Assembly (NCBI GenBank): GCA_021234155.1 | Contig: JAJEKV010000541.1 | Coordinates: forward strand, 1 to 64,000 | Origin: Isoetes taiwanensis | Lineage: Eukaryota > Streptophyta > Lycopodiopsida > Isoetales > Isoetaceae | DNA: 64,000 bases | Direction of reading: 5' to 3' | In this document: positions 1,870-43,519 of the stretch, one piece after another | Layout of the letters: every line of letters begins with the position of its first letter | How positions within the stretch are numbered: the stretch's first letter is position 1 | The notes under the pieces: generated by a model | Database searches by the model: none | What the model saw: the letters and a program-made list of their open reading frames with translations, nothing else | What the model was told of the DNA's origin: nothing | Translations under genes and position numbers: made by a program

Positions 1870-1902
1870 TAAATAAATAAATAAATAAAATAAATAAATA
1901 AT
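1870..1902 (+). repeat. AAAT simple-repeat tail of LINE A
   Basis: AAAT units follow the LINE 3' UTR with no poly(A). Other copies of this LINE family in the window end in TTCTA or TTA repeats, so the tail unit varies between insertions. Confidence 0.75.
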
Positions 1903-2208: not shown

Positions 2209-2469
2209 ACTGCCATGGCGGGTACTCGCCATTCAGTTTCAACAAGATTGGTTGCATTAGGTAGTCGTTCCCCAAAATCAAACCCAGCAAATGGTGGATT
2301 GACTGTTACTTTTGAGAAGCTTCCTGCTTTTAGGGATGTCCCTAATTTGGAAAGACATAATCTTTTCGTGAAGAACTGCAATACCAAGGGTTTTGATCCT
2401 CAAGAGGAAGAACCGGTTATGGATTCTGCTTGGCCATATCTGCAGTTTGTATATGAATTTCCTCTTTGA
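2209..2469 (+). pseudogene. PP2A B' (B56) regulatory subunit, fragment
   Basis: The 84-codon frame starting at 2215 resembles the N-terminal part of plant PP2A B' regulatory subunits, which direct the phosphatase to its substrates. LPAFRDVPNLERHNLFVKN matches the family's conserved 'FRDVP..E+..LF..K' block. FDPQEEEPVMDSAWPYLQ matches the later 'DPEEDEPALEPAWPHLQ.VYE' block. In intact proteins roughly 60-80 residues separate these blocks; here they are about four residues apart, so an internal piece is missing. The frame stops right after FVYEFPL, where the long HEAT-repeat body should begin. I see no HEAT-repeat coding downstream. It is a broken or captured gene fragment; the base family is fairly certain. 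Confidence 0.75.
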
Positions 2470-4805
2470 TATGTTGTCGCAATACAGGCAGTAAAGGTTC
2501 TTGTTTCTTTGATTTAAATATGGCTTGTTTTGAAATAGACCAAACCCTTCTCTAACTGGGCACGGCAGAGCTCTGCAATCTCTCAACCTCTTGCTGCAAG
2601 AACTTAAAAGAGTATAATATGGCCAGAAACAGAAATCAACTAAAAATGCATGGCTATCGCTTAGTCGTGCAGCTTTAGGTTTAATTTTGAGCCCTGTCCT
2701 GTACCCATTCAGAATTATCAGAGCAAGGAGGAGAAAAGGACCATGGCTGGGGCATATCTGGGGCCTCAGGCATAACATCAACTCAGGTATTCTTACTCTC
2801 AATCTTTTCTTTCTTTCAGTTTCTACTCAGGTTCATTCTCAAGGATCTACAAATTCTGGAGAGTTAGCCTTTAGCTTGATGCAAAGATGCAAAGAACAGT
2901 AAGATATCAATCTGGCTAGGCAACTGTAAATGCCTTTCTCTGTGTGCTTTTCTATAAATCTGTGCACTTTCTTATCACAAATATATATTTTGTTTGCCAT
3001 GTCAGTACGTGAATTTCCATTGCTCATCTTTTGTGGTTGAATTGTCACAGGTTGCAGCAGGTGTAAATGGCGGCGTTACAAATTTATTTTGTAAGCTTAA
3101 TCATTGAGTAGCCAAAAAAAATATAAGTTATGTTGGTTTGGCTATGCCGTTTTTTTGTTTATCACATTGTTTGTTTTGAAAGATTTTGACATTTTGTTCC
3201 CTTGCAGTAACCATTGCCATTTTCCTCAACTGGAAGTAACTCAAATAATGACATTAATGATTAATGCTGTAAGGTAAGATTCCATTTTGCTCCTTATTTG
3301 CTGATTGAGCTAAAACCATGTTGATCATTGCCATCTTATTCAAATCCATCATTTGTGATTGCAGCCTTCCCTATACATGCAGCACCATAGGCATTGATGT
3401 TCAAACTGAGGCCCAGAAGGAAGTCATAACATTTGGTTGTCTTGGCCAGTTATTTTGCTCGGAATTGCGTAAAGAACTAATGCAGCTCTTTAGATTCAGG
3501 TATGGTGTAATGTTGCTCTGGTTTAACCTTCAAAATGCATGCTGCTGTGCAAGCATTGGATATAATATTAAATTATAGTTGTTCTTAGCTCATAGGAGCA
3601 CCTTCAATAGTTAAAATACTCCATCTTAAGCATTTAATTTAAGTTTCATGGGAATTCAAGATAAAGGTGTTCATGGGATCCTACATTTTGACTGTCTTGT
3701 AGATGGATCATGTGGTTGCTTTGCAGCTAGACCTGAATTGGTACATGCGACTCTAAAAATTTAGTGAGTTTTCTTGCTGGCCTAAGTTGGAGTGATGGAA
3801 TCTGATCCTTTTGTTGAAATGATGGAATGTGCGTAACAAGTTATGTATGACATTTACAAAATGAAATCACTGGAAGCTCAATGGCTAGATCTAGGTGCAA
3901 ATGTCTTTCTTTAGTAATAGCCAGATTCTAGAAAAACCTGTACTCATGGCATGTACTTCTTTGCATTGGATCAATACAGATGAATGATGCCTAAGCGAGA
4001 GAGATGCCAGTGGATGCAGTGACAATAAGAAGCCTGAAAATATGTTCATGCTGGTTCAAAGGCTCCGCAACAGTATGTCACGAGCTGCCTAAGATAAATA
4101 GATCAAAGAATGGTTGGCAGATTTGCGAGCTTTGCAATTGTATGTCCTTGACAAGGGTGGGCAGACTGCAAAAATAGCGAGAGCCTGGTCATGGAATTTG
4201 TTCAAACAACATGAATCTATTTTTAAGTAAAGACAGTATTTTGCCACAAAGAATGATAAATTAATTTACTATTTTTTTTTTCCATAGTCCCACTTAGTGC
4301 AGAAAGAAACGTATCTATCTAGACTTGCAAGATGTTGCTTGATAATAATGTATATCAATATTCATGTTAGATCTTTCTTCGTTGATAAATTGTTAGTCTA
4401 TAGGAGTAAAATGAAAGAAAGGACCTACATTATTTGCAAGGTGTAATTGACAATTTTGGATAAGCAAGTCGGCATTCAACGATTTATTAAATGTGTGATG
4501 TGGCATGAATGTATTGCCATTGATATGATTTGATGTCTTTGCCATGAATGGACATCAATGCTATTCTTAATCATCAAATAGAAGACAATATTTTGGAATA
4601 AATTAGCCCATGAAATAGCAAACAATATTTTGACAATCCAACTTATTTTAACAATCCAGCTTATGCCCAACAATAGTTTGGTCTTCTATTGAGATTTGAA
4701 TTACTTCAGTTATCAAATGTCACCAGGTGCATTGGATGTTTCAAGTATACACAATGGATGCCACAAAATAGAGACATCTTTTATATTATAATGTTTTACG
4801 TTGTG
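2470..4805. other. Unassigned region, possible captured-gene remnants
   Basis: No frame matches a known family. Around 2,700-2,905 there is an exon-intron-like arrangement: a frame interrupted by GTATTC...TTTCAG (about 2,786-2,819), then a short open stretch ending CAG near 2,900. A short frame at about 3,362-3,500 is also flanked by intron-like T-rich sequence. These could be more pieces of the gene that supplied the PP2A fragment, but I cannot recognise the encoded residues. From 3,550 to 4,805 I see only AT-rich sequence. Confidence 0.3.
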
Positions 4806-4891
4806 TCTTCAGTCGCGGCCGAGATCAGACGATACAGATAGTTTGACATCTTCAATCGTGGCCAAAATCAGACGATACAGATAGTTTGACA
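4806..4891 (+). repeat. 43-bp tandem duplication
   Basis: Two adjacent 43-bp copies differ at only a few positions (CAGTCGCGGCCGAG versus CAATCGTGGCCAAA) and share ATCAGACGATACAGATAG. Function unknown. Confidence 0.85.
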
Positions 4892-4995
4892 TAGATCTGA
4901 GGGGTGAAATGTCACTTTTTAATAGTTAATCCTAGCTTGCCCCAAAATCTTGGAGGCATTGCCTAATAATTCGGCTTCCATACCTCGGGTCTTGA

Positions 4996-5927
4996 TTGGA
5001 ATCAATAAGCTTGCTAAAGAAAAGGCCCACATCCAGAAATATCTTAGTACTGCCAATGAAGAAGATGTCTTTAACATTACAAGGCCATGTGCCAGTATGT
5101 CCTAATTGGTCCCTTAACAATAAGAAACCATTCAAGGGCATGCATGATCAAAACATTTTCAGGCTCCCAACTTATGCCCAGCAACGCTGGGCATCATTAC
5201 TAGTTGGATCTAACGACTATATTCATCAGTATCTGCGAAATGTTAGTGGGATCCGCAATGCCCTTTCGCCCGAAAAGTTCGCCAGGCATATTGCATCACA
5301 ACTTCTGGAGCAAGTGGAGGTGGAAATCAGAGGGAAAACAACGAGTGCACTCCTACCTAGCACCTCTACAGTAGCACCAGTCGGACAAGAAAGAGGGGGT
5401 ATCAACTTGACCTCTTCCAGGTCCATGTTCGGTGACTACCGAGAGATGATAGCGGTACCGGTGGACGAGTACTCCGGAAGACACAGGCTGCAATCAGAAC
5501 CGGAGAAGAGGCAGGGGAGGCAGGGCACGACAAAGCCCTCAGGTTTTATTTACCACTGTTCACCGATGGAAGAATAGCGGTCGTACACCGCCAGTTTAGC
5601 CCACGGGGTGAAGAAGGAGTTTTTATGCTGATTGTCCTCTCAGGATTCGGAAGACATGCTCGGATGCCTCCAAACATCGACCATGTCATCCTGGTCAAGA
5701 GGACAATAGCTTTAAGTGTCTTTGATTTTGGGGTCCCATACAGGCGACAGGGCATGTTGGCCGTCACTGCAGCCTACACATCGGATAGGAGGATCGAAAA
5801 CTTGGTCACAGCACTCCAAGGTGGCACGACCACCAACATCCTTAGAAACTTGGGGCGAACAGTTGACACAACCCAAGTGAAGAAGTTCTTGGAAGACAAC
5901 CCAACATACAGAAGATTCCAAGAATAG
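4996..5927 (+). pseudogene. Broken coding region, unrecognised protein
   Basis: Base composition here is clearly more coding-like than the AT-rich flanks. One frame runs 4996-5577 and contains LPTYAQQRWASLLVG and ALSPEKFARHIASQLLEQ. A different frame carries the better-looking end, about 5,470-5,927, with FTDGRIAVVHRQFSP and the terminus FLEDNPTYRRFQE. The reading therefore switches frame between about 5,450 and 5,620. A third frame near 5,000-5,090 (KEKAHIQKYLSTANEEDVF) also looks coding, suggesting a further shift upstream. I do not recognise the family. An origin from an integrated virus or a retroelement gag-like protein is conceivable, but no diagnostic motif was seen. Confidence 0.4.
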
Positions 5928-6097
5928 GATTAAAATTTCTAATTCTCTCTCTTTTTATTTATTGAATGTAAAAATATTATATCTTATGAATATAAGTGAT
6001 GGCGTTATATATGTTCTTTTGATATATTTTGTCCCCACAACTATATCATCAAACAAACCAATGCAATAACAAACAAAAAAAACTAATCATCAGAGTG

Positions 6098-6328
6098 CAA
6101 TCTAATGTGTATACAGCTAGAGCGCCTAGGAATGTGGAAGAAGATGGACAACATCAGGAAGACCAAACACCCGCAAGGCAATTCCAGCCAAGGAACCTGT
6201 TCCAAGAGTTCGAGGCACCAACCCCAGAAGAAGAATTATTCTTCGCACTTTTTGGTTTGATTTTAATCTTCAACTTATCTGGCCAGATTATGCATAGACA
6301 GTGCGTAAGAAAGGCATCGGTCCTCTAG
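6098..6328 (+). pseudogene. Second unrecognised coding remnant
   Basis: A frame downstream of the preceding remnant on the same strand contains an acidic, glutamine-rich stretch (APRNVEEDGQHQEDQTPARQ) and a hydrophobic end (FFALFGLILIFNLSG). The interval between the two remnants (5,928-6,097) is AT-rich. Shared strand and composition suggest both belonged to one multi-gene element. Another frame around 6,300-6,410 (GPLDCVPHNLFEYNSTTG) may continue it. No family recognised. Confidence 0.3.
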
Positions 6329-6529
6329 ACTGCGTTCCCCACAATTTATTTGAGTATAATAGTACCACAGGCTCTTGCATTAAAGAGATCAACTCCATGG
6401 TTAAGGATTTTTAACTCTGCTGTGAGATCAGAGATCGGAAAGTTTTCTAGATCGCATAAAGTGGTTAATATAATAAACTGCGACCTCTTCTCTTCCCTTA
6501 TTATTGAACAACCAAGCAGATATGGTAAA

Positions 6530-7424
6530 TGACATATTTAATAAAATTTGGACTTATTCTAATCTAATAAATGTACTTCAAGGATGCCATGATAATATTA
6601 TATGTATTTTTAGCTTTTATTGATTTTAATAATTTGTTCTGTTTATCTTTAGATAAAAAATATGATACTTATTAAAATTTAAAGTTGCTTTCTAAACTAA
6701 TTCTCGGTTTCATCTATTTAGAATTAAATTTTCATCTAAGATAACTCTGTATAATTAAAATGCTATTCTTTTTAAAATATTTAAAGAAAGTTTTAGATTG
6801 AAATTAATTAAATGATTACGTTTATGTTTAATAAAAATTGAATAGTTTATTTGATTAAATGTCAATATATTTTATTTCATCAATAATAAATTATTCAATA
6901 GTTATTATTAAAACAATAAATTTATATCATTTAATTAATTTCAACTTAAAACTTTTCTTAAAGTTTTAAAAGTGTAAAAGTTTGTAAATTGTTAAAATCT
7001 AATAATAGTTTTAAGTCAATCACTTATGAAACCATCAGATTTTCATTTAATTATCATGATTGTTAAATTTGAATCTGTTAAATCACTACAAATTGAAATT
7101 GTTATATTCTTGAAATGTCCAATTCTAAATAGATTCAAATAAGTTTGGAAATCAAGTTTATTCTTTGATAACCATTATAATTTTAATTGAAAGATAAACT
7201 TATATAATTAAAACTTATAAAAATTATCACAATAAAGAAGAATAAAAAAATACATTTATAATGGCGTTCTTGAAGTGCTATATGTTAAATCTGAATAAGT
7301 CCAAATATAATTAAAACTTATAAAATTATAACAATAAAGAAGAATAAAAAAATGCATTTATAATGGCATTCTTGAAGTGCTATCTATTAAATGTGAATAA
7401 GTCCAAATTTTGTTGAATATGTCA
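6530..7424. mobile_element. Fold-back element copy 1 (895 bp)
   Basis: AT-rich element whose ends are inverted copies. The left end begins TGACATATTTAATAAA and the right end, reverse-complemented, begins TGACATATTCAACAAA; the match continues through TTTGGACTTATTC. The symmetry goes deeper: the block around 6,785-6,820 (GAAATTAATTAAATGA) is mirrored at about 6,928-6,955. Much of the element can therefore fold into one long imperfect hairpin, with its centre near 6,870. The right arm is longer because of an internal direct duplication of about 110 bp (7,200-7,410). No coding capacity. No convincing target duplication was found. Confidence 0.8.
7200..7410 (+). repeat. Direct duplication inside the fold-back right arm
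   Basis: Two adjacent blocks of about 110 bp share AAGAAGAATAAAAAAAT, then ATTTATAATGGC and TTCTTGAAGTGCTAT, and each ends in AATAAGTCCAAAT. The same duplication is present in the right arms of copies 2 and 3, so it predates amplification of the array. Confidence 0.8.
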
Positions 7425-7654
7425 TGTAAGCATTTTCAGAACATACTGATGTATTTAGTTTGCTAATTAGAGTGGGCGTTGGGGTCAAAATGCAGACACC
7501 ACATCGACCTTGGGGTCAAAATGCAGACACCACATTATATGATGTTGGCTGAGTGCAATGTGATGCAATTAGAGTATGAAGCCCAATGTCACTTTCTAAC
7601 ATACCTTATGGAAGAAGGTAGTTATCCTAGATTGGCACCGAAGGCGACAAATTA
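7425..7654 (+). repeat. Spacer 1 between fold-back copies (230 bp)
   Basis: Non-fold-back DNA lying between two fold-back copies. It recurs almost unchanged as spacer 2 at 14,527-14,755. It contains a 31-bp-period direct repeat starting at 7479 and 7510 (TTGGGGTCAAAATGCAGACA). A short open frame crosses it (CNVMQLEYEAQCHFLTYL) and runs into the next fold-back, so it may be a scrap of coding sequence. The spacer is not found left of copy 1 or right of copy 3. Confidence 0.75.
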
Positions 7655-8199
7655 TGACATATTTAATAAAATTTGGACTTATTCTAATCTAATAAATGTA
7701 CTTCAAGGATGCCATGATAATATTATATGTATTTTTAGCTCTTATTAATTTTAATAATTTGTCTGTTTATCTTTAGATAAAAAATATGATGCTTATTAAA
7801 ATTTAAAGTTGCTTTCTAAACTAATTCTCGGTTTCATCTATTTAGAATTAAATTTTCATCTAAGATAACTCTGTATAATTAAAATGCTATTCTTTTCAAA
7901 ATATTTAAAGAAAGTTTTAGATTGAAATTAATTAAATGATTACGTTTATGTTTAATAAAAATTGAATAGTTTATTTGATTAAATGTCAATATATTTTATT
8001 TCATCAATAATAAATTATTCAATAGTTATTATTAAAACAATAAATTTATATCATTTAATTAATTTCAACTTAAAACTTTTCTTAAAGTTTTTAAAAGTGT
8101 AAAAGTTTGTAAATTGTTAAAATCTAATAATAGTTTTAAGTCAATCACTTATGAAACCATCAGATTTTCATTTAATTATCACAAGGCACCCAAAAATTT

Positions 8200-8970
8200 A
8201 ACCACTACCATAAACCACTGAAAAACCACTATAGATGTGGTTTTTAATGCTAAAAATTTCATTCTTAATAAAAACCACGTAGCATAGTGGTTTTCATAAC
8301 TAGTACATGGTTATTCATGTTGATTTTCTCTTATAGTGTGGTTTATTAAAACCGATATTAGTTTACTACATGGTTTTCTAGCATTAATGTTGGTCATTCA
8401 TGTTGGTTTCTAAGATAGCATGGTTTATTAAATCGATATTGGTTTGTAGCATGGTTTTTCAACACCACTATAAGTATGGCAGTGGTTATTTATGTTGGTT
8501 TCTATTGTTCTATTGCTTAGAGAAGTTGAAATAATTTATGGTGTGGTGTTTTATACCAATTTAATTGCCATGGTGGTTATTCATGCTAGTTTTTTATTAT
8601 CGCAATGTATTTTATAGACTAGTTGTGGTTTTATGCCATGGTTTTTAATACTGAGTTAATTATCATGGTAATGACTCATAGATATTACCGAAAAAGATGT
8701 GGTTATCCATAGTGGTTACTCATAAGGAACCCAAAAACCAATTGCCGTAATTAACTGCTATCAAACCACTATAGATATGGTTCAGACTTTATTTAAATAT
8801 CAAGCAAATGAGTAAATGTCCAAATACAAAGGCATCTTTTTTAATTTGTCATTCTTTAGTTTTTTGTAATTTGTTTTGAAAACCAGCATGCAATAGTGGT
8901 TTTCAACTCTTCTCCATTTCATGTGGTTCCCCCTCCTATCTTTCATGACAATGTGGTGGTTAAAGTAAAG
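8200..8970. repeat. Left subterminal repeats of the CACTA-like element
   Basis: The motifs AACCACTATA, GTGGTTTT and CATGGTTTT recur many times in both orientations over about 770 bp. Near 8,730 there is a partial internal echo of the terminus (AAGGAACCCAAAAACC). Such repeats are the usual transposase-binding region in this superfamily. A looser set lies at about 13,960-14,135 on the right side. Confidence 0.75.
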
Positions 8971-11900
8971 TTGTTGATAAACTCAGGAGAGGGAAAATCC
9001 CGATAATGAGATATGAAATCCCTTTTTTAGGCAATTTAAAATAATTTTAATCATGTATATAATTGGGAGGAGTCGGTACCCTAGGGGTGGTGTGGTTATG
9101 AACACCCCCATGCACCATTAGAGTCAAACAAAACATTCATAGATGTTACATGTGGCAACTTCTAGTTATTCAATTTTGTTCTATTGCAATAGTATAGTAT
9201 TTTTCTAAAACTGAGTACGCATATAAAAGTGCAAACATTGGCATGGCTCTATCATGTGCCAGATATTGGTTGACTATGCTTAGATGCATCAATTCACATT
9301 TTTTATCAAGCCCATATGGAAATTTGCCTCAGGAAAGAGCAAACTTAGATGCACTAATGAAGTTAAACGATGAAGACTTCTTGCCTCATTTAATTACTTA
9401 AACTCCATTTGTTGGTGGTTCCTTTTGCCAGAATAGATCTTTGTTTTGTTTATTCAAAGCTAATCAGCAGGATGTTGCCAACGAATATGCCCCTTGCTTT
9501 ACTTGACAAAATATTATATAGTTTGAGGTTTGTTTTATAAAGTGAGACATTTATGGACATATTCTCTAAGTTTGCACATGATCTAGAGCTTTTACAAGGT
9601 TCAAACCCTTGGAGTTCAATTTTGCTATAGAATGTCTAGGTGGAAATCTATTTACATGCGAAATTGGCATTGGGATAGGACTCTAGGAGATGCAACCAGG
9701 AAGAGAGATATAAGGAGGATTCTTGACATTGTTCCTTTTGTTGTGATATCCAAGTAGTGCCTTCAAAGCTCTTATGAATGAATAATCTCTTCAAACAAAA
9801 AGATCTCATATTCAACATTTTATTTCATACGAATGTACATTTAGAGGTTGAAATGTAGAGGCGCAAATGATGTGCATATTCCAACTATACTTGAAGATGC
9901 TTCCGTAATGACATCGAGTCAACTTATGGCATATCCTTAATAGAAATTTTTAATTACAAAAATTGAAAGCTGGATGGTTGATATATCTAACAACACCATA
10001 GAAATTGTTTCTAGGAATGCTTTATTATGGTTTTAAACAAGGGAGTTTAGATTTTCGTATCACGTTTTTCATGAAATGAGCATGAATTTGGGGAACACAA
10101 ATTTGGTCCAAATGTTTTCTTTCTTGATTGTTTTTTGGATCAACTTCATTCATAACATGGCTGCTCCTGGTCATAGTAAGCATCTTCATTGTTGTTTTAT
10201 TTATAGATGGTATCCCTCGCATATTTTTTCAAACCCCCATGAATGGCTTCCATATGCCTGTCAATTCATAATCTTTGCATCTGTACTAGGTGTGCTTTTG
10301 ATGAGTAAATTTCTGATCTAGCTCAACCTTCTGAAGAACCTCCATAGACTGAGCTTTGGTTGGGCATTAAGGGTGCCTTCCGGATGGGGCTTTTATGATG
10401 TAGGCCATTGTTAAGACAAAATTCACAAATGTAGCTTTGCTTCACACACCAAATCATCTTTCAATTTTTGAGCAACACAACAGAGCTTAACTCTTGAAAG
10501 CAACAGCCATAAAAACTATCATGCAAGAATAACTCATGGAAAACAATGTTTATATGGCTTTAGACAGGAAATCCTAGGTCTAACATGCTTCATGAGCAAA
10601 AAATGCTTATGATGTCACAATTGGAAGAAAAATGGCAAGAACAAAAAGCATGAGCGAGGGAGGTACGTTTAAAAAGATCAGGGGCCAGCCTAGAAAACAA
10701 CAGGAATGATGCGCATGACATGGTAGATAGATGAGAGGATCCGGCGATGTTTCTGCTGGCTGCTAAATGTTATATTGACAGGTTCCAGAAGATGGATGGC
10801 CTTAAGTCAAGCTTGATACAGATCATCACCAAGGTTGGAGGCTGCTTACATGCATGCGGCTGTACGGTGGATTTTTTATTTGCAGCAAATATGTCAAGTC
10901 TTGTTTTCATCAGGATTAGACTGGAGCAGGGATTTCGTTTCAATAAGGCAATGTTATCTAGGTTTTATTGTCCTTTGGCTATGATTTAGAATTAGAACAA
11001 GTTTTCTCCTCAGCTTTGGCAGTGGCAATTTTAATTTAAAATAGAAGCCAATAGGAAATCCCCACGTCACATTTTGTCGTTCATCCCTCTTTAGTTGTGG
11101 TAGCTGCATTGCATAACTGGTATTATTTTTGTTGTTGCCGTGGAATTTTCATGCTTTCGGCCAATATTGCTTGGTAGAATAAAATTTCGACGACAATAGG
11201 AAGAATGCACGGTTAAAAATAGCTAATTAGTGGTTTTGTGGTTGGCTTATTGGAAGTTTTTAAAGTAGAAGATGCAGCAATTTCAAACAAATTTATGTTA
11301 GTGCCTTGAAACTATGAGGCCACATCATTTTGAAATCCGAGCTTAGGTAAAATACTGACTAGTGGAAATCGTTAGTGGAATTCGAGCTTAAGTAAATCTG
11401 ACTAGGTTACCACTCAAACAACTACTGCGCTTAAATTTTGAAAAATGCGTGAAAACAAATTCAACTAGTCTAAAATCCAAATATGGAAGTCATCAGCGGC
11501 TCACGATTGTGATCTCTTGCTCTCTATGAAAAAGGGGAAGCGACTTCAAAGGGAATGAGGCGACAAACCCTCATTGAGGGGCGCCTCAACGATCGGGGCA
11601 AGTAAAAAACCTTGAGCTCCTGCGGGCGTCTTGAGCAAGCAAAAGGCGGAACCTTGGGGTAGTTTCATTGCAAGCTTCACCTTTAAAATGGATTTCATTG
11701 CCGCCTCAAAGCGAGAGATGGATTATTTTGTTTCGTTTGTTCTTCTTTGTTTTTGTTTCTTTCGGTGTCGCACTGAGAGAGGTATGTTTTGCTTGCCCCT
11801 CTTTATTTTATTACATTCTTTTGTTTCGTTTCACGGCTCATTCGTTTTTTTTCGTTGAACTGAAATGAAATAGCAGATAGTAAGTGGATTAAAATATCCC

Positions 11901-13430
11901 TTTCACGGAGTTGAGTTTTTGATTTACGGTTTGGGCGCTTAAACGGATCGAGGGAAAGGAAAGGCTGCTTGTTTGGTTGTCGAGGTATGGGAATAATATC
12001 AAGCACGAGATATCATCCCGATCTTTCTCATATGTATTATTCTCTCACCTTTCCATACTTCGCATAACCCATCTCATCGAAGGCTTCAAAACCTTTTCTT
12101 TTGACTCAAGCTTTGATCGTGAATATCTCCACCGTGAGCCGTATGTCGGAAGAAGGCTAGCAACTGTATCGAGAAGAAGGTTAGGGAAAAATTCATGTTA
12201 GCCCATCCTATCTAGGACATATTTTTTCTGAAATGAGAATGCTTTATAGCCTTGGTTTCTAATACTTCTTTAACTACATGCATTCAATGCACGACCGGTT
12301 TTGCGATCATCAATAGGTTATCAAGAACATTCATTTTGCAATGATTATGTGCATTATCTTTGGATAGAAGTGTTCATTCTCATTTGGCTTGCATCTTATT
12401 CATGTTTGATAATCCAACTGTAAATGGGCCTCATTTTGTGATGCAACTACTTTGGGCTTGCTAAATCGATCTGCAACTTTACCTTGAGGTTATCCTTACT
12501 GCTCTTGCGGCATGGTTCTTCCCTTTTATTTCCCTTTTACTGGCTCTTTTATATTGCAGAGGTATAAGAAGGAAATCCAGCACCAACTTGTGAAACTACA
12601 GTTTTGGCGAATGGAAGCTCATGCTGATTGAGGCAGGTAGGACCTTCCAAGTCTAGCTCTATTTGTTATGCCATTTATTTAGCTAATGCTTTTAAGCATG
12701 GTTACTTTGTTTGTTACGCAGGAGATCTTGGTCGGCATCTGGAGACAGACTACGAATAATGCTTAGTAGCTTGTGGTTAGAGTGGAATGCTTCAAATGCC
12801 ATTGTCTACCAATAGGAGCACATACATCTAAAGTCAGCAGGTCTGGTAAAGTTTCATTGACGCCCTATTTTGCTACTTCAACGCTAAGCCAGACCCTTGT
12901 TTTTTGACACACTATTTTCTCTCTTTTCTACTCTTCCAGCTATGGCAATAGGCAAACACCGTCTGCATCAAGGGTAGTTCAAAGCTAGGAATATGCTTGG
13001 AATGTAATTTTTGAATCTCCACGTTGAATACAGTAGGTGCAATCTGCGGGGCCTTGTCGCATCGCCACAGGGAATTAGAGGTGATCCAAATAGGGGTGAT
13101 CTGTTTAAGTTGGATTAATATGTGATCCATTTGAGCTGTATTAATATATGTTTGATGTTTGAGTACTTAAATACAAATGCAAGGTCATTACTTTCTTCCT
13201 ATGCTGGATGTTTGCTATTTGATATAAATTTACATTGTACATATTTCTTTTTAAAAATAGATTTGTCATTGTTTTGTTTATATGAGTTTTGGAATGGGGG
13301 TTCAAATCCCCTTGCTCTCTGATTTGTGTTGCTATTAAGGAGCAGTTGAGGAAAGCAAATATAGTGACATAGTTGGAATACGTCCTACAATATATAAAAG
13401 AAACCATTCATAGTCTTTAATAGTTTCAGT
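8971..13430. other. Interior of the CACTA-like element, no recognisable gene
   Basis: Short frames only. Around 12,540-12,775 there are exon-like stretches preceded by intron-like acceptors: TTTATATTGCAG before a frame reading RYKKEIQHQLVKLQFW, and TTTGTTACGCAG before the next block. A more GC-rich stretch at 11,480-11,660 contains no recognisable product. The 80-codon frame at 10,747-10,989 is unrecognised. These may be fragments of captured host genes, as is common for this superfamily, but the source is unknown. Confidence 0.35.
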
Positions 13431-13437
13431 TTACAAA

Positions 13438-13665
13438 ACCTGAAATGCTTCAAACAACAAAACGTTGTTAGCTATCATTATTAAACATGAAATGCTTCAA
13501 ACAACAGAACATTATTAAACATGAAATGCTTCAAACAACAAAACATTGTTGGCTATCATCTTTTGGTTTATTAATGATAAACATACACATTTAGGACAAA
13601 CAATTACTATAAATACATAACAAAATCATACACATTTAGGACAAACAATTACTATAAATAGATAG
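13438..13665 (+). repeat. Short tandem duplications inside the CACTA-like element
   Basis: Three near copies of TGAAATGCTTCAAACAACA lie at about 13,440-13,545. The segment ACATTTAGGACAAACAATTA is duplicated at about 13,587 and 13,632. A GATA run follows and forms the tail of the adjacent SINE. Confidence 0.75.
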
Positions 13666-13907
13666 ATAGATAGTAGTTTTAACGTCACGCCACTAGGCAG
13701 CATCCAACTGGACATGTGACCACACACCACACTACATTGCTTGGTTGGGCCCTGCCCCCAACCACCTTACATTGCGCGTAAGATGGGGGGATTTGACCCC
13801 CAGCGAAGCATGTCGGGGAGATCTTCAGCGGACAGGAAGCACATGGTCTCGAACTCGAGACCACATTGCTAAGGAACTAGTGTGTTACCACTAGACCAAA
13901 CGCCCAG
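13665..13907 (-). mobile_element. tRNA-derived SINE
   Basis: Read on the minus strand, the element starts GGGCGTTTGG and has an A box TGGTCTAGTGG (13888-13898). About 33 bp later it has a B box GTTCGAGACC within the block at 13845-13862. This is the layout of an internal RNA polymerase III promoter. A body of roughly 165 bp without tRNA similarity follows. The 3' end is GTGACGTTAAAACTA followed by CTAT repeats, the same kind of 3' end as the LINE family in this window. No clear target duplication was found. It should be transcribed by Pol III if still active. Confidence 0.75.
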
Positions 13908-14526
13908 ACCCTTACATGAAGCCATACCCTTAAACATGAAGCCATATCCTTAAACACTATAATGTACCACATCAACTTACCAACATGTAATACCACTTTG
14001 ACAAACTCTACAAAGAAACTATTTGCAATTACCATGTCATAATACCATCATAACAAACCTTACAAGAGAACCCATTAGTTTAGTCACATATGGTTTTTAA
14101 TGATATCAACCCACAAACATGCATTGGTTTTCTATAATTTTGGGTGTCTTGTGTATCATGATTGTTAAATTTGAATATGTTAAATCACTACAAATTGAAA
14201 TTGTTATATTCTTGAAATGTCCAATTCTAAATAGATTCAAATAAGTTTGGAAATCAAGTTTATTCTTTGATAACCATTATAATTTTAATTGAAAGATAAA
14301 CTTATATAATTAAAACTTATAAAAATTATCACAATAAAGAAGAATAAAAAAATACATTTATAATGGCGTTCTTGAAGTGCTATATGTTAAATCTGAATAA
14401 GTCCAAATATAATTAAAACTTATAAAATTATAACAATAAAGAAGAATAAAAAAATGCATTTATAATGGCATTCTTGAAGTGCTATCTATTAAATGTGAAT
14501 AAGTCCAAATTTTGTTGAATATGTCA

Positions 14527-14755
14527 TAAGCATTTTCAGAACATACTGATGTATTTAGTTTGCTGATTAGAGTGGGCGTTGGGGTCAAAATGCAGACACC
14601 ACATCGACCTTGGGGTCAAAATGTAGACACCACATTATATGATGTTGGCTGAGTGCAATGTGATGCAATTAGAGTATGAAGCCCAATGTCACTTTCTAAC
14701 ATACCTTATGGAAGAAGGTAGTTATCCTAGATTTAGCCTTAGAATCGACAAATTA
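14527..14755 (+). repeat. Spacer 2 between fold-back copies
   Basis: Near-identical to spacer 1, including the 31-bp-period direct repeat (here at about 14,579 and 14,610). Differences are single substitutions and a small change near 14,733 (ATTTAGCCTTAGAATC instead of ATTGGCACCGAAGGC). Confidence 0.8.
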
Positions 14756-15649
14756 TGACATTTTTAATAAAATTTGGACTTATTCTAATCTAATAAATGT
14801 ACTTCAAGGATGCCATGATAATATTATATGTATTTTTAGCTCTTATTAATTTTAATAATTTGTTCTGTTTATCTTTAGATAAAAAATATGATGCTTATTA
14901 AAATTTAAAGTTGCTTTCTAAACTAATTCTCGGTTTCATCTATTTAGAATTAAATTTTCATCTAAGATAACTCTGTATAATTAAAATGCTATTCTTTTCA
15001 AAATATTTAAAGAAACTTTTAGATTGAAATTAATTAAATGATTACGTTTATGTTTAATAAAAATTGAATAGTTTATTTGATTAAATGTCAATATATTTTA
15101 TTTCATCAGTAATAAATTATTCAATAGTTATTATTAAAACAATAAATTTATATCATTTAATTAATTTCAACTTAAAACTTTTCTTAAAGTTTTTAAAAGT
15201 GTAAAAGTTTGTAAATTGTTAAAATCTAATAATAGTTTTAAGTTAATCACTTATGAAACCATCAGATTTTCATTTAATTATCATGATTGTTAAATTTAAA
15301 TCTGTTAAATCACTACAAATTGAAATTATTATATTCTTGAAATGTCCAATTCTAAATAAATTCAAATAAGTTTGGAAATCAAGTTTATTCTTTGATAACC
15401 ATTATAATCTTAATTGAAAGATAAACTTATATAATTAAAACTTACAAAAATTATAACAATAAAGAAGAAAAAAAATACATTTATAATGGCGTTCTTGAAG
15501 TGCTATATGTTAAATCTGAATAAGTCCAAATATAATTAAAACTTATAAAATTATAACAATAAAGAAGAATAAAAAAATGCATTTATAATGGCGTTCTTGA
15601 AGTGCAATCTATTAAATGTGAATAAGTCCAAATTTTGTTGAATATGTCA
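14756..15649. mobile_element. Fold-back element copy 3 (894 bp)
   Basis: Same termini and interior as copies 1 and 2, including the duplication in the right arm. It is followed directly by LINE-like sequence and not by another spacer, so the array reads element-spacer-element-spacer-element. Confidence 0.8.
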
Positions 15650-15654
15650 TCTGA

Positions 15655-16015
15655 ATAGATAAAAGGTGGTATGCAGATGGAATGATTTGATTATAAAAAT
15701 GGGATATCCAGATCAAGGGTTAGCATGCAATAAGAGAGGGATCAAAGAATGGATAAGGGATAATGTCTGCGAAAGAATTTGGCATGCCTCTAGTATCAGA
15801 ATGTCACACTATAGGGAGAAGATGAACCTGGCACTCCAGGGAATGAAATATTTGGATGGGAACATCCAAGAAAAGTAAAATAGCAACAAGATGCATTGGC
15901 AACCGAAAAAATTGTGAGGCAAGAGAATCAGTCCTTAAAGGACAACCTTATGGTGATGCCTGCAAAAATAGATAATGTAAGCAATGACCTCGACACATTG
16001 CAAACCCAACTTGTA
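15655..16015 (+). pseudogene. Retroelement-like coding remnant
   Basis: A 70-codon frame at 15,666-15,878 contains EWIRDNVCERIWHASS and MSHYREKMN. After a stop, a coiled-coil-like stretch follows in another frame (KIVRQENQSLKDNLMVM). Spacing and residues recall the C-terminal region of the LINE polyproteins seen elsewhere in this window, but no diagnostic motif is present and the assignment is weak. It fills the gap between the fold-back array and the LTR element. Confidence 0.3.
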
Positions 16016-18643
16016 TGTAATGAGCTTGGCGGGTCGTGAGACATGTAATTTATGTTTCATTATTCATGCTTATGGAGAATATTCAAACCGATCATTATAT
16101 GAGAAATACATACTATGTATGAGGAGTTTATACTAAATTCATGTGATAAAAGCGAAAGGGCATCGGTTTCTATGAGGGTTTTGGAAGGAAGGAAAGAGCA
16201 ATTTTTGGGCGAGTTTTTTGGCCGAAATTTGGAGCATCATATCTCAACAACCCGAGATTCAATTCAGGTAATTCTTACTTTATTGGAAAGGTTTTGAATC
16301 AGCTTTCGGATTGGGTCCGATAGAAATTCATCGTATGAAGGAGATATGATGAGAAAAGAGTGAAGCTGTATTAGAATTGAGTGCACCATTGTATCTCTTT
16401 GTGCAGCTTCCTTCCTGGAGCTAGGAGCTGAAAGGAGGGGATATTTTGAGAAGAAAACAGGTACAAGGACTCAAAGGATCGTCATTGAAGTGGTTCTCAG
16501 GTGGGTGGTTTTCCGCTTACACCAGGGGAAGCTTAGATTGCTTAGATTGTTCTTGTTGTTGAAAGAGAATCATGATATAATGATTTGAATTAAGAGTATA
16601 AAAAAATCTGGGTGATCTTGAATGTGATAATGTGGGATTGAATGTCTTTTGCCACATTGATATATAAGAGGAAGTAAGAACTAAGCTAAGCTTATTGTAA
16701 GAAGTCTGAGAATGGTCCTTCGAATTGTAGATAGTAGGCCAGACCTTGTATATAGTAAACGGATCCTGGCAACAACAATATAGAGATTGTTATGCTTGGA
16801 GAAGCTAGAACTCAATTGGAACCTTGAGACCATGTAGCTCATGGGGGCTGAATGGAGGTTCTAACAAAGGCACGAAAGACGCCATCAGCTCCATGAGACA
16901 AGAAGCTAATTTAGAAGATAGACAAAGATGTATATATACTTTTGGTGATTAGATTGAAGTTAAGATGCTAAAATAAACTATGATAGAGAATTGCACTCCT
17001 AAGAAACAACTGTGGAGGTTATGTGAGATACGTTAATCTTTCACTTAGATAGTAAGAGAATGTATGCCAAAGCGGTCTAAAGAAGCTTATGGGGGCTTCT
17101 GCAGTATGGCAATGGCATGGAGTATTATTGGCCAAATAAAATGGTAAGTTATGTAATTAATTTATTAGTAAGAAAAATAAGCTAACATATTGAATTGCAT
17201 ATGAGTATTCTGTAAAATGTTCGCTCCTTATGAAGGGAGTGATTTTGGGGAAGCATGCCGGTAGAAGTATGTTGTAGTTGCTAGGTGATCCTTATAACTT
17301 ATATGGACGTAAATTATATAGGGATATCAAACATTATGACATCCTAGGATAAGCTTTTCCTATGGGGAGGAAAATGCTAGATCTTTTATGTGTTCTTGTA
17401 TAATATATCTAGACATGTTAAATGCTTGGATACCATGGTGATGTGTCAAGGTTGCATTATATTAGCATGTACTTGTTGAATATTTGACATCATGTGGTAG
17501 AACATGAATGTCATATGTCTATGATATCATTGCAAATGTTGGCATTGTTCTATGTTGTTCCTGGTAAATGCATAGGAAATGCATGTGAGAATAGAATAGA
17601 ATAGAATAGTTTTTTTAACGTCCACGGAGACCAATAGGTCATGGGACTCTTGATTCTTGGATCATATGATGATAAACATGGTCTAAACTCTAACATGTGG
17701 GGCATATTAAGTTCTTGGCTGATACATGAGTGCATATTCTCCGGGGCTGGAGTCCATTTGCAGTGGCTTGGACTCGCAGTTGTTCTTGTTCTTGACATCG
17801 AGGCGTTGTTACCCAAGCAAGGGTGCTTGCCGCGGCTACATGGCTTGGAAGTGGTCCCCTAGTGCTGGGCCAGGCTGGGAGGGTGTGTACACATGAGGCT
17901 TACCCGCCAGTATTTCTGCTTGGGGGCTGATCGGCCGGGTGGCCTTCATAGAACCCGGAGTAGGCCTTGCATGTTTATGGATATCTCATGGTTATTTCAT
18001 GGTTCTTCATGGTCTCGTGATTATCTCTTGATTATTGCAAGGTTATGGCATGTGCATTTACACCTTATTTGGATGGCTTGATGATGTTTTAATTCTTATT
18101 ATCATTGTTCATGTTATATGCTAATAATGCATTCTGGTTTCTAGCATAGAGGATTCTTAGGTGAGGCATCTAAGTCGAGAATTACTCTTGTGATTGGTAC
18201 ATCGTACATGTTTCTTGTTGATTATGCCATCTTTTTTCTAAATGCCTCAAACCCCACTTAGTCTTTAAGACTAACCCCCGTGTTCATGGTGTATGCTTGA
18301 GTTTGAAATGTGAGAATGTAGCGGGGGCAAGCAACTGAAGGGCACAATTGAGTGCAGTCTTCACTTGTGGGGAAACTGTATGCCTTTAGAAAGGCCTTAT
18401 CATTTCTGGAGCTTATGTATATATGGAGCTCATTTGTATATGCCACAAGAGTGCTATACAATTATGCTTGAAATGAATATGTACTAACTACTATGGATTT
18501 GAAGACAAAGATTCAATTCTTTACCAAGATTTCTTCAGTAGCATTGCATCATTCAATCCGTACATACCAATTTGGCATTCACTCATGCAAAGTTAGATGG
18601 GATTTTGGGTTACCTGGTGGGTTAACCTAGCAGGCCCGTTACA
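16016..18643 (+). mobile_element. 5' LTR of a LARD-like LTR retrotransposon
   Basis: The LTR begins TGTAATGAGC and ends GGCCCGTTACA, the TG...CA form, directly before a primer-binding site. At least its first 1.47 kb is repeated at 21,609-23,089 with high similarity. The copy is 2,628 bp here, about 380 bp of which appear to be a LINE fragment (17,587-17,967). A motif CCCCACTTAGTCTTTAAGAC lies at about 18,254 and a related form recurs at 45.17 kb. The left flank ends TTGTA; the matching right flank is lost, so the target duplication cannot be checked. Confidence 0.85.
17587..17967 (-). mobile_element. 5'-truncated LINE insertion in the 5' LTR
   Basis: On the minus strand the fragment ends CCGTGGACGTTAAAAAAAC followed by TATTC repeats, the 3' end typical of this window's non-L1 LINE family. 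Candidate target duplications TGCATGT lie at 17,580-17,586 and 17,968-17,974. I looked for A and B boxes near its 5' end and found none, so it is a LINE fragment and not a SINE. Confidence 0.6.
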
Positions 18644-18644
18644 G

Positions 18645-18658
18645 TTGGTATCAGAGCA
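18645..18658 (+). other. Primer-binding site, initiator Met-tRNA type
   Basis: TTGGTATCAGAGC one base after the LTR matches the complement of the 3' end of plant initiator methionine tRNA. This is the usual primer for Ty3 and many Ty1-type plant elements. Confidence 0.85.
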
Positions 18659-19716
18659 TAGTTGGATCATTGATGTTGATATGGTTGATTAGAAATTTTA
18701 TTTGAGGTATTGGTTGTTGGATGGTGCTAATGATAATATTTCAGATCATGTAGGGACGATGATCTAGGATGTGCGATGGATCTGTCAAGTATGGAAATGT
18801 AATGACATGATATCCTAGTATTGATTTCTTTAATTATATTTTCTGTGGTAGATAACTCTGGTGGGATGCATGTGATCAAGGAACTAATCTTAGTTCAATC
18901 TTGTACAAAACATGAAGAATGCTAATAGAAACGTCTTCATGTGGAGCATGAAAAGTGAGGCTGGATGATGTGAAGGTATGGTTTTTACGTTTGCTTATGT
19001 TCTCTACAATTGATAGATGATCGAGTATAGATCCTATTGGCAAATGCATTTTCGAATAAAGTGCGAAAGAATATCAAAGCAGAATATAATTATGTATGAA
19101 GGTGAGCTTTCCTTATCAAATCAGGTGAGATATTTCTACATTAAGGAGACATTAAGTGGCTTGCTAGTAATGAGTTGATGCTTCTGAATCTTTGAGTATG
19201 AGGTGTTAATATATCTTCGCCTGTTGTTGCTGAGTCAATTTGAGACAGGTTATAATTGAGTTCACAGTAACGAGAATGCAGCTAAAATAAGATATAAGCT
19301 GTCAAGATGGCTAGTTTGGAAATCTTATTTTGATAGTTATGGAATTGACATAGAAGAAAATGCCATTACCCTATACAATGACTCTATTTGGAGATTAAAG
19401 TTTTGTGCATGTTCTTGTAAGCAGTCTTTTGTGCATGTTTCCATCCAAGGTTAAAGCTGAAGTAAAATTTGGAGGATTTGAAAGATTCTTGTATTTGTCG
19501 AGGATAAAAGTAAGTGCTTTTCAGAACACACAGATCTGATCGAAGGATTGAATAAATAGAGAATAATCCTAAATATTTGGTCAAGATATATTGAGAAATA
19601 ACTTGAGCTATGTTGGATGTATAATAGGATATATCCACATTGCAAATGCTGATTGGAATAGCCATATCCTTGGTGGTAGGGAACAATCGTGCCAGACATA
19701 ATAGTGGAACCCAAAA

Positions 19717-19752
19717 ATAGAATAGAATAGAATAGATTTTTTAACGTCCACA
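19717..19752 (-). mobile_element. Extremely short LINE 3' end insertion
   Basis: On the minus strand it reads TGTGGACGTTAAAAAATC followed by TATTC repeats, the same 3' signature as the other LINE insertions. Little or no LINE sequence is recognisable upstream of the signature, so reverse transcription seems to have stopped almost at once. Confidence 0.55.
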
Positions 19753-21596
19753 GGGAAAAGTATAAGGACATACTTGAGCTGAGGTGGAAGGAAATGTTAC
19801 AGCAAGATGAAATGCCACATTTGGAATTATTTAATTTGATAGGAAAGTACCATAGCAATATGCCCAAGAAGTTGGGGTTACTGTCTACATACTTGTGCTC
19901 TCTTATCGAGTCTTTTGAGGGATATATTAAAAGGATGTTAATTTCATCACGATCTATCAAAAAAGTAAGCATCTATTGGGGATTGCATCATTGGATTCTT
20001 ACTAGTGATGGAAGGAAACTTGATGGTTTGAATAGTTTGGATTGGTTCGACGTATTCTAGCTCGGGTTAGTAAAGAAGCTAATTGGATTATGCGTGAGAA
20101 CATGCTAGCAATTTTATAGTGTAGGAATAGAGGTTTTGTTTGATATATAAGATAAAGTTTTTTATAGCTTGACTGATGTCTGGGAAAAGTTAGCGCTGTA
20201 GAATAGAAATTAACCAATGTAATGGGTATGGATTTAGAGAGCGGGTGAGCAATGTCTATCGAAATTACTTTTATAGCTTAAGATATTTGATAAGTATTCC
20301 CGATATGTTAAATAGGCTTCTTTGAGAGATTCTATATTGTAGACTATGATTGTAATCATTATAGGCTCTCTTATATTGATTATCTGTGCTTTATAGCCTT
20401 GAGATACTCAGACAGGGGGACTTAACTATGTATTCTACTTGTCATTTTTTGGATTTAGCCACCGAAGAAGTTTCGTGTGAGTACATATTGAGTTCGATCT
20501 GAGCATCTATGTTGCCATGGTGTGCTTAGTATTTTAATGTATAGAACCCTCTATAAAAAAATGGTAGATTCATTCTGTGCGTGAAGTTGCATTAGGCTTG
20601 GTTGGGTTATACTTAAGTTTGCCCGCATTATATGCATAAGCATAGACATAGTTAGTAACAATTGAGTTTGATTCTAAACTATGTGTGTGCCAAATTCGTC
20701 ATTGATGGTCAATACACTTAACTTATGTAACATACATCTTTAACTTTATTTATTATATATGTCAAGCTAGGCAAGTTTGGAAAGATATGAGGTGGTTTGT
20801 GTGCGATAAAGCATTTGGCGCTTGAAGATTGTGGCAGTTTGTGCTTGTTAAGGCCATAGCAGTGTCATGGAAGGATCTTCATTTCATGTTAAGTGTTCTT
20901 TTTTTTGTATGATTAAGATGCCACATATAAAGAAGCTTATTTATAAATGAAAAGTATTTATTGGTGAGATATCTCTACGGGTATGCCGGAATCGTAAGAC
21001 GAGTTGGTTGCCTCTTGGAATTATTTTGAGCTGCATTTTCTTATCTAATTCAAGTAAAGCTTTCCATGCATGTTATAGATCATGGAACATATAATTTTAA
21101 AGAAGCACCATAATGGATTCTATTTAGTGAGATAAATGGCATCTGGGTAATGTTCAGAGGAGGCATAAGTAGCCAAGATTAATTATCATGAGCATGAGCT
21201 ATTTACGGTCAAGTGTTTAATTGATGTTGTCAAGGACTTCAAGACATATATGGTTTACTGGCATAAGTGCTTCACAATGATATGTTGAGAAGAAGAAGAA
21301 GATCAGTTCCTTGCAGATTGGTTTCAAGCGTGTAATTTGATTTGTTATAATGCATGTATGCTTTTCATTCAACTAAGGAAGTGTGGTGCTTCAATGGAGG
21401 CAGTATAAGCAAGCCCGGTCAACTCATTGATTATGTAGGAAGAAATTATTATATTCATGACAGCTAGCAAGGGAAGAAAGAATAATTATGGTGATAAGTT
21501 GGCGTTATTATATAGTTGGTCATGAAGATTTAATTCTATGATTTATTGGATACTCCGCTATTTTGGAACGACCCATGAGGACATGGGTTAAATTTT

Positions 21597-29310: not shown

Positions 29311-29324
29311 ACTTGAAAACTTCC

Positions 29325-41039: not shown

Positions 41040-41179
41040 AGGTAATTATCCTCCTTGGGAGTGTCAAGGCCATTTTTCAATTTGGCCTTTATAACAGGGT
41101 TTCCCCCTGTCTTTTTGTATTACTATGTATCTACATGTAATATAATACTACTGTCGTTTCCACAAAAAAAAAAAAAAAA
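41040..41179 (+). mobile_element. 3' terminus of an L1-type element with poly(A)
   Basis: The sequence ends GTCGTTTCCAC followed by 16 A residues (41,164-41,179), abutting the interior of a fold-back copy. This looks like the tail of the L1 that starts near 30.5 kb. No target duplication could be matched on the left side, so the link with that L1 is an inference. Confidence 0.5.
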
Positions 41180-41720
41180 TATGATACTTATTAAAATTTA
41201 AAGTTGCTTTCTAAACTAATTCTCAGTTTCATCTATTTAGAATTAAATTTTCATCTAAGATAACTCAGTATAATTAAAATGCTATTCTTTTTAAAATATT
41301 TAAAGAAAGTTTTAGATTGAAATTAATTAAATGATTACGTTTATGTTTAATAAAAATTGAATAGTTTATTTGATTAAATGTCAATATATTTTATTTCATC
41401 AATAATAAATTATTCAATAGTTATTATTAAAACAATAAATTTATATCATTCAATTAATTTCAACTTAAAACTTTTCTTAAAGTTTTTAAAAGTGTAAAAG
41501 TTTGTAAATTGTTAAAATCTAATAATAGTTTTATGTCAATCACTTATGAAACCATCAGATTTACATTTAATTATCATGATTGTTAAATTTGAATCTGTTA
41601 AATCACTACAAATTGAAATTGTTATATTCTTGAAATGTCCAATTCTAAATAGATTCAAATAAGTTTGGAAATCAAGTTTATTCTTTGATAACCATTATAA
41701 TTTTAATTGAAAGATAAACT
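41180..41720. mobile_element. Fold-back element copy 4, internal fragment
   Basis: Near-identical to 6,660-7,200 of copy 1 over 541 bp with no net length change. It starts at the poly(A) run and stops at GATAAACT, where LTR sequence begins. Both ends of the fold-back are missing. Confidence 0.85.
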
Positions 41721-43519
41721 TAGCTTAGCTTATTGTAAGAACTAAGCTAAGCTTATTGTAAGAAGTCTGGGAATAGTCCTTCGTATTGTAGATAGTAGGG
41801 CAGACCTTGTATATAGTAAACGGGATCCTGGCAACAACAATATAGAGATTGTTATGCTTGGAGAAGCTAGAACTCAATTGGAACCTTGAGACCATGTAGC
41901 CTCATGGGGGCTGAATGGAGGTTCTAACAAAGGCACGAAAGACGCCATCAGCTCCATGAGACAAGAAGCTAATTTAGAAGATAGACAAAGATGTATATAT
42001 ACTTTTGGTGATTAGATTGAAGTTAAGATGCTCCTTCCAAAATGGGCAGGTGGTCTGGATATGATGGACTTCTTACTGCAGATCAAAGTGCTTATTTCAA
42101 AGTTCATTTGGAGACTCCTGAATAGTGAGGACGACTCTCCTGGTTCATGCCTTCTTAGACAAGCTCTTGGTCCTTTGTATCTCTCTAGGCAAGAAGAATT
42201 TGTCAAACCCAGTCCTACCTTAGGATTTATTTGAGTGCTGACCTTTTTCAAGTGCTTCTCCATTTTTGCGTGGCTTGTTGGCGGCATGGGAGGCGGTCGA
42301 GACATCTTTTACGGCCATGCCTCTCTATCCCACATCCTATTGGAGACTCCATGGTGGTGGGCACCCTTTGCCTCCGGATCCCTCGGCACCTCCATTGGCG
42401 ACCTCACTTCATCCCCTTACACATAGGCGATGGGTTCTTGCGGTGTTGTCTCTATTCAAGCATGGTATGGGCGGGTAAGCCCTCTTGTCTTGGTCTGAAT
42501 TTCGGGCAAAGTTCTGCTCTCTCATTGGGGCGTATCTCTATGGGAGAAGGTCATGAGAAAACTTGCCTCTTATAGTCAAGTTGATGTTCTTTGAAAAGGG
42601 TGCCATGGGGCTGTCATGAAAATCTTCACAAAAGGCAAGCAATTTGTCGGATCGGTATATATCGCCTTCTTTTAGCACCACAACCCCTCCGGTTGCGGAT
42701 GGGTGGCACCTACATGTTCCCTGACCCACTTTGTGTCATTACATGGCGATGGCTTTGGGATAAGTTGCTCCACCCTAAAGTCTACATCTTGTGGTGGCGG
42801 GTTATCCACGAGGTGCACTGCGGGTTAATGCCTTTCGACGACGCTAGCTATGATCCTCGCATATCTGCGGTATGCCGCTATGTCTTCCGGACGTTGAGAC
42901 TCTTGAGCATTGTCTCTTTGATTGTCTGAGGTTCAACCCGCGTGGTCACGGCTACAAGGTTTGTTTAACAATACATTGTTTGCCGATGCATCCTTTTTGG
43001 CGTCCTATCCCCAGCGCATGGCCTCGGCTAAGCGAAGGGCATTTCATCTTGGTTGGGTTGGCTCCTATGGTGCGATATGGGGCGTCGCGGAACAAACATC
43101 TTCGGGGCATTTATTCATGCGTATCACGGTGTTATTACGGTGGCCGAGAAAAAGATATTGACGACCCTCGAGTGTTCCTCCCTTATTTCGAGGCTGGTGG
43201 AGGCATGCGGATTGATATCTTGAATTGATTCTTATCATTAGTCTCCTAAATTGATTCTTATCATTAGTCTCCTATTCGGGTAAGTACATTTGTGCTCCAG
43301 GGCTCGTGCTCTGTGGCATCTTTGTGTGCTTACGGTTAGATGAGACATATAAATTTTGTACTTTTTCTCGATTAATAAACTTTTTGGGTTTAGTCCTTCA
43401 AAAAAAAAAAAAAAAAAGATGCTAAAATAAACTATGATAGAAATGCACTCCTAAGAAACAACAGAGTGGAGGTTATGTGAGATCGTTAATCTTTCCTTAG
43501 ATAGTAAGAGAATGTATGC
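41721..43519 (+). mobile_element. Third LTR copy of the LARD family, interrupted by L1
   Basis: 41,721-42,032 matches the 5' LTR from about 16,675 to 16,975, and 43,416-43,519 continues it to about 17,060. The L1 at 42,033-43,415 lies between. At its left end AAGCTAAGCTTATTGTAAGA is locally duplicated. The junction with fold-back sequence is abrupt and has no recognisable element end, so it arose by recombination or deletion. Confidence 0.8.
42033..43415 (+). mobile_element. 5'-truncated L1 insertion with poly(A) and 8-bp target duplication
   Basis: The insertion is flanked by AAGATGCT at 42,025-42,032 and 43,416-43,423 and ends in a poly(A) run from 43,400. It holds the C-terminal part of L1 ORF2: PKWAGGLDMMDFLLQIKVLI, the zinc-finger RVT region with LHPKVYILWWRVIHEV (about 42,770-42,815), and VETLEHCLFDC (about 42,886-42,920). 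Stops and shifts are present. The 3' UTR contains a 26-bp direct duplication (TTGATTCTTATCATTAGTCT) at about 43,222 and 43,248. Coordinates are certain to within the A run. Confidence 0.85.

Follow-up and report, generated by a model that had tools for sequence, protein, structure and literature searches.

The window analysed here, the first 64,000 nucleotides (forward strand) of contig JAJEKV010000541.1 from the Isoetes taiwanensis assembly GCA_021234155.1, contains an array in which three copies of a fold-back element, E, alternate with two copies of a spacer, S, in the order A-S1-B-S2-C, where A, B, and C are the element copies (Table 1). An earlier account made from the letters alone (the sequence-only reading) had described three near-identical fold-backs alternating with two spacers, and this description is borne out: the elements measure 897, 897, and 896 bp, with 5 to 16 substitutions between any two of them, and the spacers are about 228 bp long. 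To this we add that B is interrupted by a 5,974-bp insertion and that a fourth, incomplete element lies elsewhere in the window. The 9.1-kb span thus consists of an array of approximately 3.1 kb plus the insertion.

Table 1. Positions in the window of the array components, their flanks, and the additional element copy.
Feature	Position	Strand	Remarks
Left flank	5830..6528	+	Common to the window and the relocated two-element copy at C1063
Fold-back element A	6529..7425	+	897 bp; target-site duplication (TSD) GTAA on either side
Spacer S1	7426..7653	+	Bases 1-53 without match in E-free long interspersed nuclear element (LINE) loci; copy of a 26-bp direct repeat at 54-79; LINE remnant at 75-225
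Fold-back element B, left part	7654..8179	+	C-type at sites 88, 94, and 139
CACTA-like insertion	8180..14153		5,974 bp; termini CACAAGGCACCC...GGGTGTCTTGTG; 3-bp TSD TAT
Fold-back element B, right part	14154..14527	+	A-type at sites 700, 840, and 853; first 3 bases are the insertion's TSD copy
Spacer S2	14528..14754	+	99% identical to S1 over 207 bp; about 12 bp by C strongly different
Fold-back element C	14755..15650	+	896 bp; sits in LINE remnant; no clean TSD
Right flank	15651..16014	+	LINE remnant that carries on from S past C, with LINE similarity as far as about base 216 of the flank
Fourth fold-back copy, incomplete	41174..41722	+	E positions 126-673; no spacer

The insertion splits B after base 526 of the element. 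Its inverted CAC...GTG ends (CACAAGGCACCCAAAA / CACAAGACACCCAAAA) and its 3-bp TSD, found at 8177-8179 and 14154-14156, are both those of CACTA (En/Spm) elements. No Pfam domain was found in the open reading frames (ORFs) of the insertion that were submitted, which were part of those listed of at least 45 aa, with introns left out of account.

The genome (1.66 Gb in 1,110 contigs) holds a second triple array in the region C1036:3257000-3292000 (loci L031, L032, L038, and L039). There, C1036:3.267-3.282 Mb is collinear with window positions 11-19776 and has the order E-S-E[CACTA-like]-S-E followed by the adjacent long terminal repeat (LTR), with the end of the first spacer and the first 94 bases of the middle element missing. 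Because the same order is found at C1036, the layout in the window is unlikely to be an assembly error of one contig. Many of the position-specific variants of A, B, and C also occur at C1036. The two regions differ by 1,472 substitutions in 18,449 bp (8%) and by 841 gap openings, and in all three segments compared the substitutions show strand asymmetry (A>G 297 versus T>C 98 in total), which is seen neither in the comparison with the copy at C1063 described below (A>G 17, T>C 13) nor in that of the LTRs (A>G 13, T>C 10). An ancient paralogue was considered for C1036 and rejected, as strand-asymmetric differences and gaps indicate uncorrected sequence rather than age. C1036 would appear to represent this locus a second time, as a copy or haplotype whose sequence was poorly corrected, the alternative being a very unusual mutation process; we took it as support for the layout and left it out of dating.

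A dispersed fold-back transposon

E is an imperfect fold-back, with 108-bp outer arms that match at about 77% and an inner palindrome of 212 bp at 78%. It starts with ATGACAT and finishes with ATGTCAT, so that its ends (ATGACATATT...AATATGTCAT) are inverted, and its right arm is doubled in tandem (102-bp repeats at 7202-7408). For A and C, the copies whose folding energy was compared with that of shuffled sequences, z was -8.3 and -7.2, respectively, and 0 of 20 shuffles was as good in either case. Long inverted ends that fold the whole element are the mark of a fold-back non-autonomous DNA transposon.

A genome search with E gave 2,020 first-look candidates, 40 of which were scored. Among the matches listed, many end at query position 778, which suggests that copies with a single right arm exist alongside the two-arm, 897-bp form. 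Both edges were taken for 10 copies, representing nine distinct sites, as C1030 and C37 have common flanks. A perfect 4-bp TSD (TAAT, CTTT, AAAG, TACC, or ACAT) was present at five of the nine, and further 4-bp TSDs flank A, two copies at C1098 (AAAG), and copy 3 at C952 (TGAT). Because perfect 4-bp duplications recur in this way, when perfect agreement of at least four bases at the exact ends is expected in only about 1% of random pairs, we conclude that E is a dispersed non-autonomous DNA transposon of approximately 0.8-0.9 kb with long fold-back terminal inverted repeats (TIRs) and a 4-bp TSD. No TSD of 8-11 bp was found at the exact ends of A, B, or C when up to two mismatches were allowed, and the TIR core had no matches in viral_contigs.

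Some copies of E are found close together. Three lie at C1098:3.445-3.455 Mb (L062-L067) at a spacing of about 4.6 kb with near-identical flanks on both sides, i.e., on tandem duplications, and the matches there suggest a third right arm in E. Three more lie within 3.4 kb at C952:7.724 Mb (L061), also on tandem duplications. The two copies at C1072:2.651-2.654 Mb (L068-L071) have identical left flanks and different right flanks, which suggests a duplication with a breakpoint at or in E. The incomplete copy in the window has on its left an A-rich run with which a T-rich region ends and an LTR fragment of the 16-23 kb element (described below) on its right.

The spacer and the site of element C

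The sequence-only reading had the spacer confined to the array. This is true of DNA matches in the window and untrue of the genome: a search with the spacer gave 67 candidates, and the 40 places scored comprised S1, S2, a full-length copy at C1063 (99%), two partial ones at C1036 (83% and 79%), and 35 places with the LINE part only. Widespread occurrence without fold-back flanks, which had been named beforehand as the outcome that would speak against a mobile compound unit, was found for the LINE part, with no E within 1.5 kb on either side at 25 of the 30 loci cut out. It was not found for the whole spacer, which among the scored places is limited to this locus, C1063, and a decayed version at C1036, each time with the same neighbours.

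The E-free loci also preserve the site of C in its empty state. S and the right flank are collinear across this site in 16 of the 25 (in 11 of them to within 1 bp, in 4 to within 14 bp, and in L026 as projected from a match further on), while seven have no right-flank match and two (L014 and L028) are not collinear. All seven of the loci chosen from the 25 for alignment (L004, L005, L007, L009, L012, L015, and L020) run unbroken through the site. Since loci without E read across the site of C, we conclude that C inserted into a LINE remnant and that S is local DNA, not mobile cargo. A TSD for C that had seemed significant within the window (GAATCGACAAA / GAATAGATAAA; two mismatches, offset 2, null 0.145%) was dropped, as the block of S2 that makes the match is itself altered relative to the LINE copies.

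The name LINE is used here on the strength of a weak protein similarity to the LINE remnants in the window, together with motifs that we take to be those of LINEs; the status of the sequence as a dispersed repeat is independent of the name. Within the window, the LINE origin of S could not be decided, and it was the genome search that settled it. The match of S to the 44-kb LINE remnant was equalled by 0 of 500 residue shuffles (6 of 1000 with other scoring) and by 1 of 150 dinucleotide shuffles, whereas 6 of 100 did as well in a window-wide search. Shuffles of the right flank did as well in 125 of 500 and in 337 of 500 cases; with the remnant near 1.2 kb the figure was 1 of 150, and with the 44-kb remnant it was 58 of 150. 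Joining S to the right flank gave 1 of 150 and 15 of 150 as good, and control joins reached the score of the joined sequence in 14 of 400 and 4 of 400 cases, or in 157 of 600 with one supposed TSD copy removed. Alignment at the DNA level gave nothing (122 of 300 and 181 of 300 as good), and the left flank showed no LINE similarity (142 of 200 and 174 of 200 controls as good).

Related copies, the mosaic element, and the origin of the array

A copy of the locus at C1063:6.94 Mb has two elements instead of three, in the order left flank-E-S-E-right flank-part of LTR, with a single spacer and no CACTA-like element inside. Its left part is 98.5% and its right part 96.2% identical to the window. 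The copy reaches past its fold-backs, by about 0.7 kb on the left and about 1.2 kb on the right, to edges that correspond to window positions 5830 and 16872, and does not break at the fold-back ends. Outside these edges, in the 49.5 kb taken, similarity to the window is limited to three pieces of the CACTA-like family (77%, 87%, and 69% over 599, 133, and 194 bp), at least 11 kb away, and one 53-bp piece. The short sequences TCTAA, CAAAG, and ACATC occur near both edges; they are compatible with end-joining and short enough to be due to chance.

In the window, the history of the array is recorded in B. Variable sites were polarised with the E copies at C952 as the outgroup (three copies at sites 88, 94, and 139 and two at 700, 840, and 853). 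Derived states at 88, 94, and 139 are common to B and C, and derived states at 700 and 840 are common to A and B; at 853, A and B keep the ancestral T and C is derived. B and C have no derived states in common on the right, nor do A and B on the left, and the right part of B differs from that of A by one substitution in 369 columns. B is a mosaic with a C-type left and an A-type right, which is what misaligned pairing of A with C, followed by an exchange somewhere from 139 to 700, should produce.

Over approximately 895 columns, there are 5 substitutions between A and B, 13 between B and C, and 16 between A and C. The duplication is younger than the split of A and C, because the right parts of B and A (1/369) and the two spacers (about 1%) differ less than A and C do (16/895). 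The elements at C1063 have A at 139 and A at 700, which are the outgroup states, and lack the derived 139G and 700C. If the triple array were older and the C1063 copy had lost one unit, B- or C-type sequence (139G) would be left in the second element and A- or B-type sequence (700C) in the first. As such, the simplest reading is that C1063 was copied before the expansion. Contraction itself is a credible process, since unequal exchange between repeats can delete units as well, and C1036 has the triple array; given the states at C1063, we nevertheless regard it as very unlikely here.

Unequal recombination between adjacent repeats duplicates the DNA between them. We consider it very probable that unequal exchange between two neighbouring fold-backs made this array and duplicated the intervening DNA, an ordinary process which calls for no new kind of mobile element. 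The sequence-only reading had likewise proposed one expansion by unequal exchange between the fold-backs, and both the mosaic B at the polarised sites and the E-S-E state kept at C1063 agree with it. In the sequence of events that we propose, A would have inserted beside a truncated LINE remnant and C within the remnant in the same orientation, giving left flank-A-S-C-right flank with about 228 bp of local DNA, S, between the two elements. A on one chromatid or homologue would then have paired with C on another, and an exchange within the element, between 139 and 700, would have produced A-S1-B-S2-C, in which B combines the left part of C with the right part of A. The CACTA-like element would have entered B after the expansion. 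That the exchange was a reciprocal crossing-over and not another homologous repair route is something we infer, as is the order of some of the steps.

Several observations weigh against parts of this account. Four of the nine distinct E sites (C1084, C1058, C919, and C1034) have no perfect 4-bp TSD; the copies at C1084 and C1058 have the same left flank, so at least one of the two is rearranged. The insertion of C was itself irregular, because compared with the LINE copies (GACAA|TAGAT) its flanks contain an extra ATT on the left and CTGAA before TAGAT on the right, with no clean TSD, and the 12 or so bp of S2 adjoining C (14733-14745) resemble neither S1 nor the LINE copies. A max-chi2 permutation within the window, on unpolarised sites, gave p 0.0095, a value that taken alone overstates the case, as many of its sites are private to C and the polarised evidence amounts to five sites. 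At C1063, the first element has C at 88, and the second has the derived A at 840 that A and B share.

Drosophila Foldback (FB) elements form compound FB units, and by analogy the sequence-only reading took E-S-E to be a compound element that moves as a unit by its outer fold-back ends. The presence of E-S-E with the same spacer at a second and otherwise different place, C1063, is what such mobility would produce. However, the C1063 copy, the only clear case of relocation found, takes in flanking DNA on both sides and breaks outside the fold-backs, no TSD joins the outer ends (the flanks left of A and right of C have no exact 3-12 bp match at the ends or at offsets up to 2), and A alone has a TSD of its own, GTAA, between the left flank and S. 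With S mostly LINE remnant, collinear with the right flank at loci that have no E, and its full-length form confined, among the 40 places scored, to the locus and its copies, we gave up the compound element as highly improbable. A different role for the fold-back pair, namely that it helped to move the surrounding 3.9-kb segment to C1063 by an aberrant transposition capturing flanking DNA on both sides, also seems to us very unlikely; if true, it would mean that fold-back pairs move neighbouring DNA in this genome, though without using their outer ends exactly.

Elsewhere, E copies are carried on larger tandem duplications (three at C1098 and three at C952), which raises the idea of a satellite in the making or of a longer tandem repeat that merely contains E. 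Here, the array begins and stops exactly at E, neither the left flank of A nor the right flank of C resembles the ends of the spacer, and none of the scored places other than this locus and its copies has the full unit, leaving this idea with a very slight probability. Slighter still is that of a tandem retrotransposon in which E would be the LTR and S the internal domain, expanded between LTRs, even though the layout is that of tandem LTR retrotransposons (LTR-int-LTR-int-LTR; PMC11899658, PMC7215508). The ends of E are inverted (ATGACAT...ATGTCAT), E folds back and occurs alone with 4-bp TSDs at several sites, and S consists mostly of LINE sequence that other loci have in the absence of E. 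Neither direct TG...CA terminal repeats nor a primer-binding site or polypurine tract (the latter two judged by eye) were found in E and S.

Comparison with known systems and other features of the window

In tandem arrays of LTR retrotransposons and of terminal-repeat retrotransposons in miniature (TRIMs), recombination between repeats is among the routes proposed (PMC11899658, PMC7215508). These arrays share the repeat-spacer-repeat-spacer-repeat layout with the locus described here, where in contrast the repeats are separately inserted fold-back DNA transposons and the spacer is local, mostly LINE DNA and not an internal domain. Mutator-like elements (MULEs) are known with doubled, tandem TIR arms (PMC3310237), and E likewise has long inverted ends with the arm of one end present twice in tandem. 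MULE TSDs, however, are 9-11 bp in length, whereas those of E are 4 bp, and the assignment of E to this group was rejected on that ground. The MULE arrays of guayule and rice (SaTar; PMC5907723) are continuous arrays of unrelated elements; they resemble our array in having several non-autonomous DNA elements in line and differ from it in that here one element was duplicated together with its spacer. Tetris of Drosophila is a fold-back with internal subrepeats (PMC4079207), and FB and Tetris elements share with E long inverted repeats with internal subrepeats that fold back. Unlike in Drosophila FB, we see no sign here of an element pair moving the DNA between by its outer ends, and the TSD is 4 bp. 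A search of the literature on plant fold-back arrays, with most subscription papers outside its coverage, found no plant fold-back pair with such a history.

Seldom can the conversion of DNA between two ordinary transposon insertions into a tandem repeat be followed so fully: the LINE copies preserve the empty site, a copy with two elements has survived, the middle element is a mosaic, and a nested insertion that came later helps in ordering the events. Where element-spacer-element arrays are met, the spacer should be looked for elsewhere in the genome before the array is read as a mobile compound element.

Rfam (at gathering thresholds) and tRNA scans gave no matches, and Pfam searches of chosen ORFs, the LINE remnants, and part of the CACTA-like insertion gave only LINE endonuclease and weak reverse transcriptase matches. 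Positions 16015-23089 resemble an LTR retrotransposon, with direct repeats at 16015-17473 and 21608-23089 (93.8% identical) and a purine-rich tract before the second; LTR pieces of this element also occur at 41735-42032 and 43416-43519, with an interruption of about 1.4 kb between them. Two overlapping ORFs of 193 and 163 aa at 4996-5924 could be one frameshifted protein and have no Pfam match. Inverted 1.1-kb repeats, 87.5% identical, at 29323-30449 and 33215-34341 surround a LINE endonuclease ORF at 31339-32250, and the tandem array at 63001-63359 is built of 41-42 bp units, each forming an inverted repeat on its own (GGCAAAGTGTATTCCGGAATACACTTTGCC).

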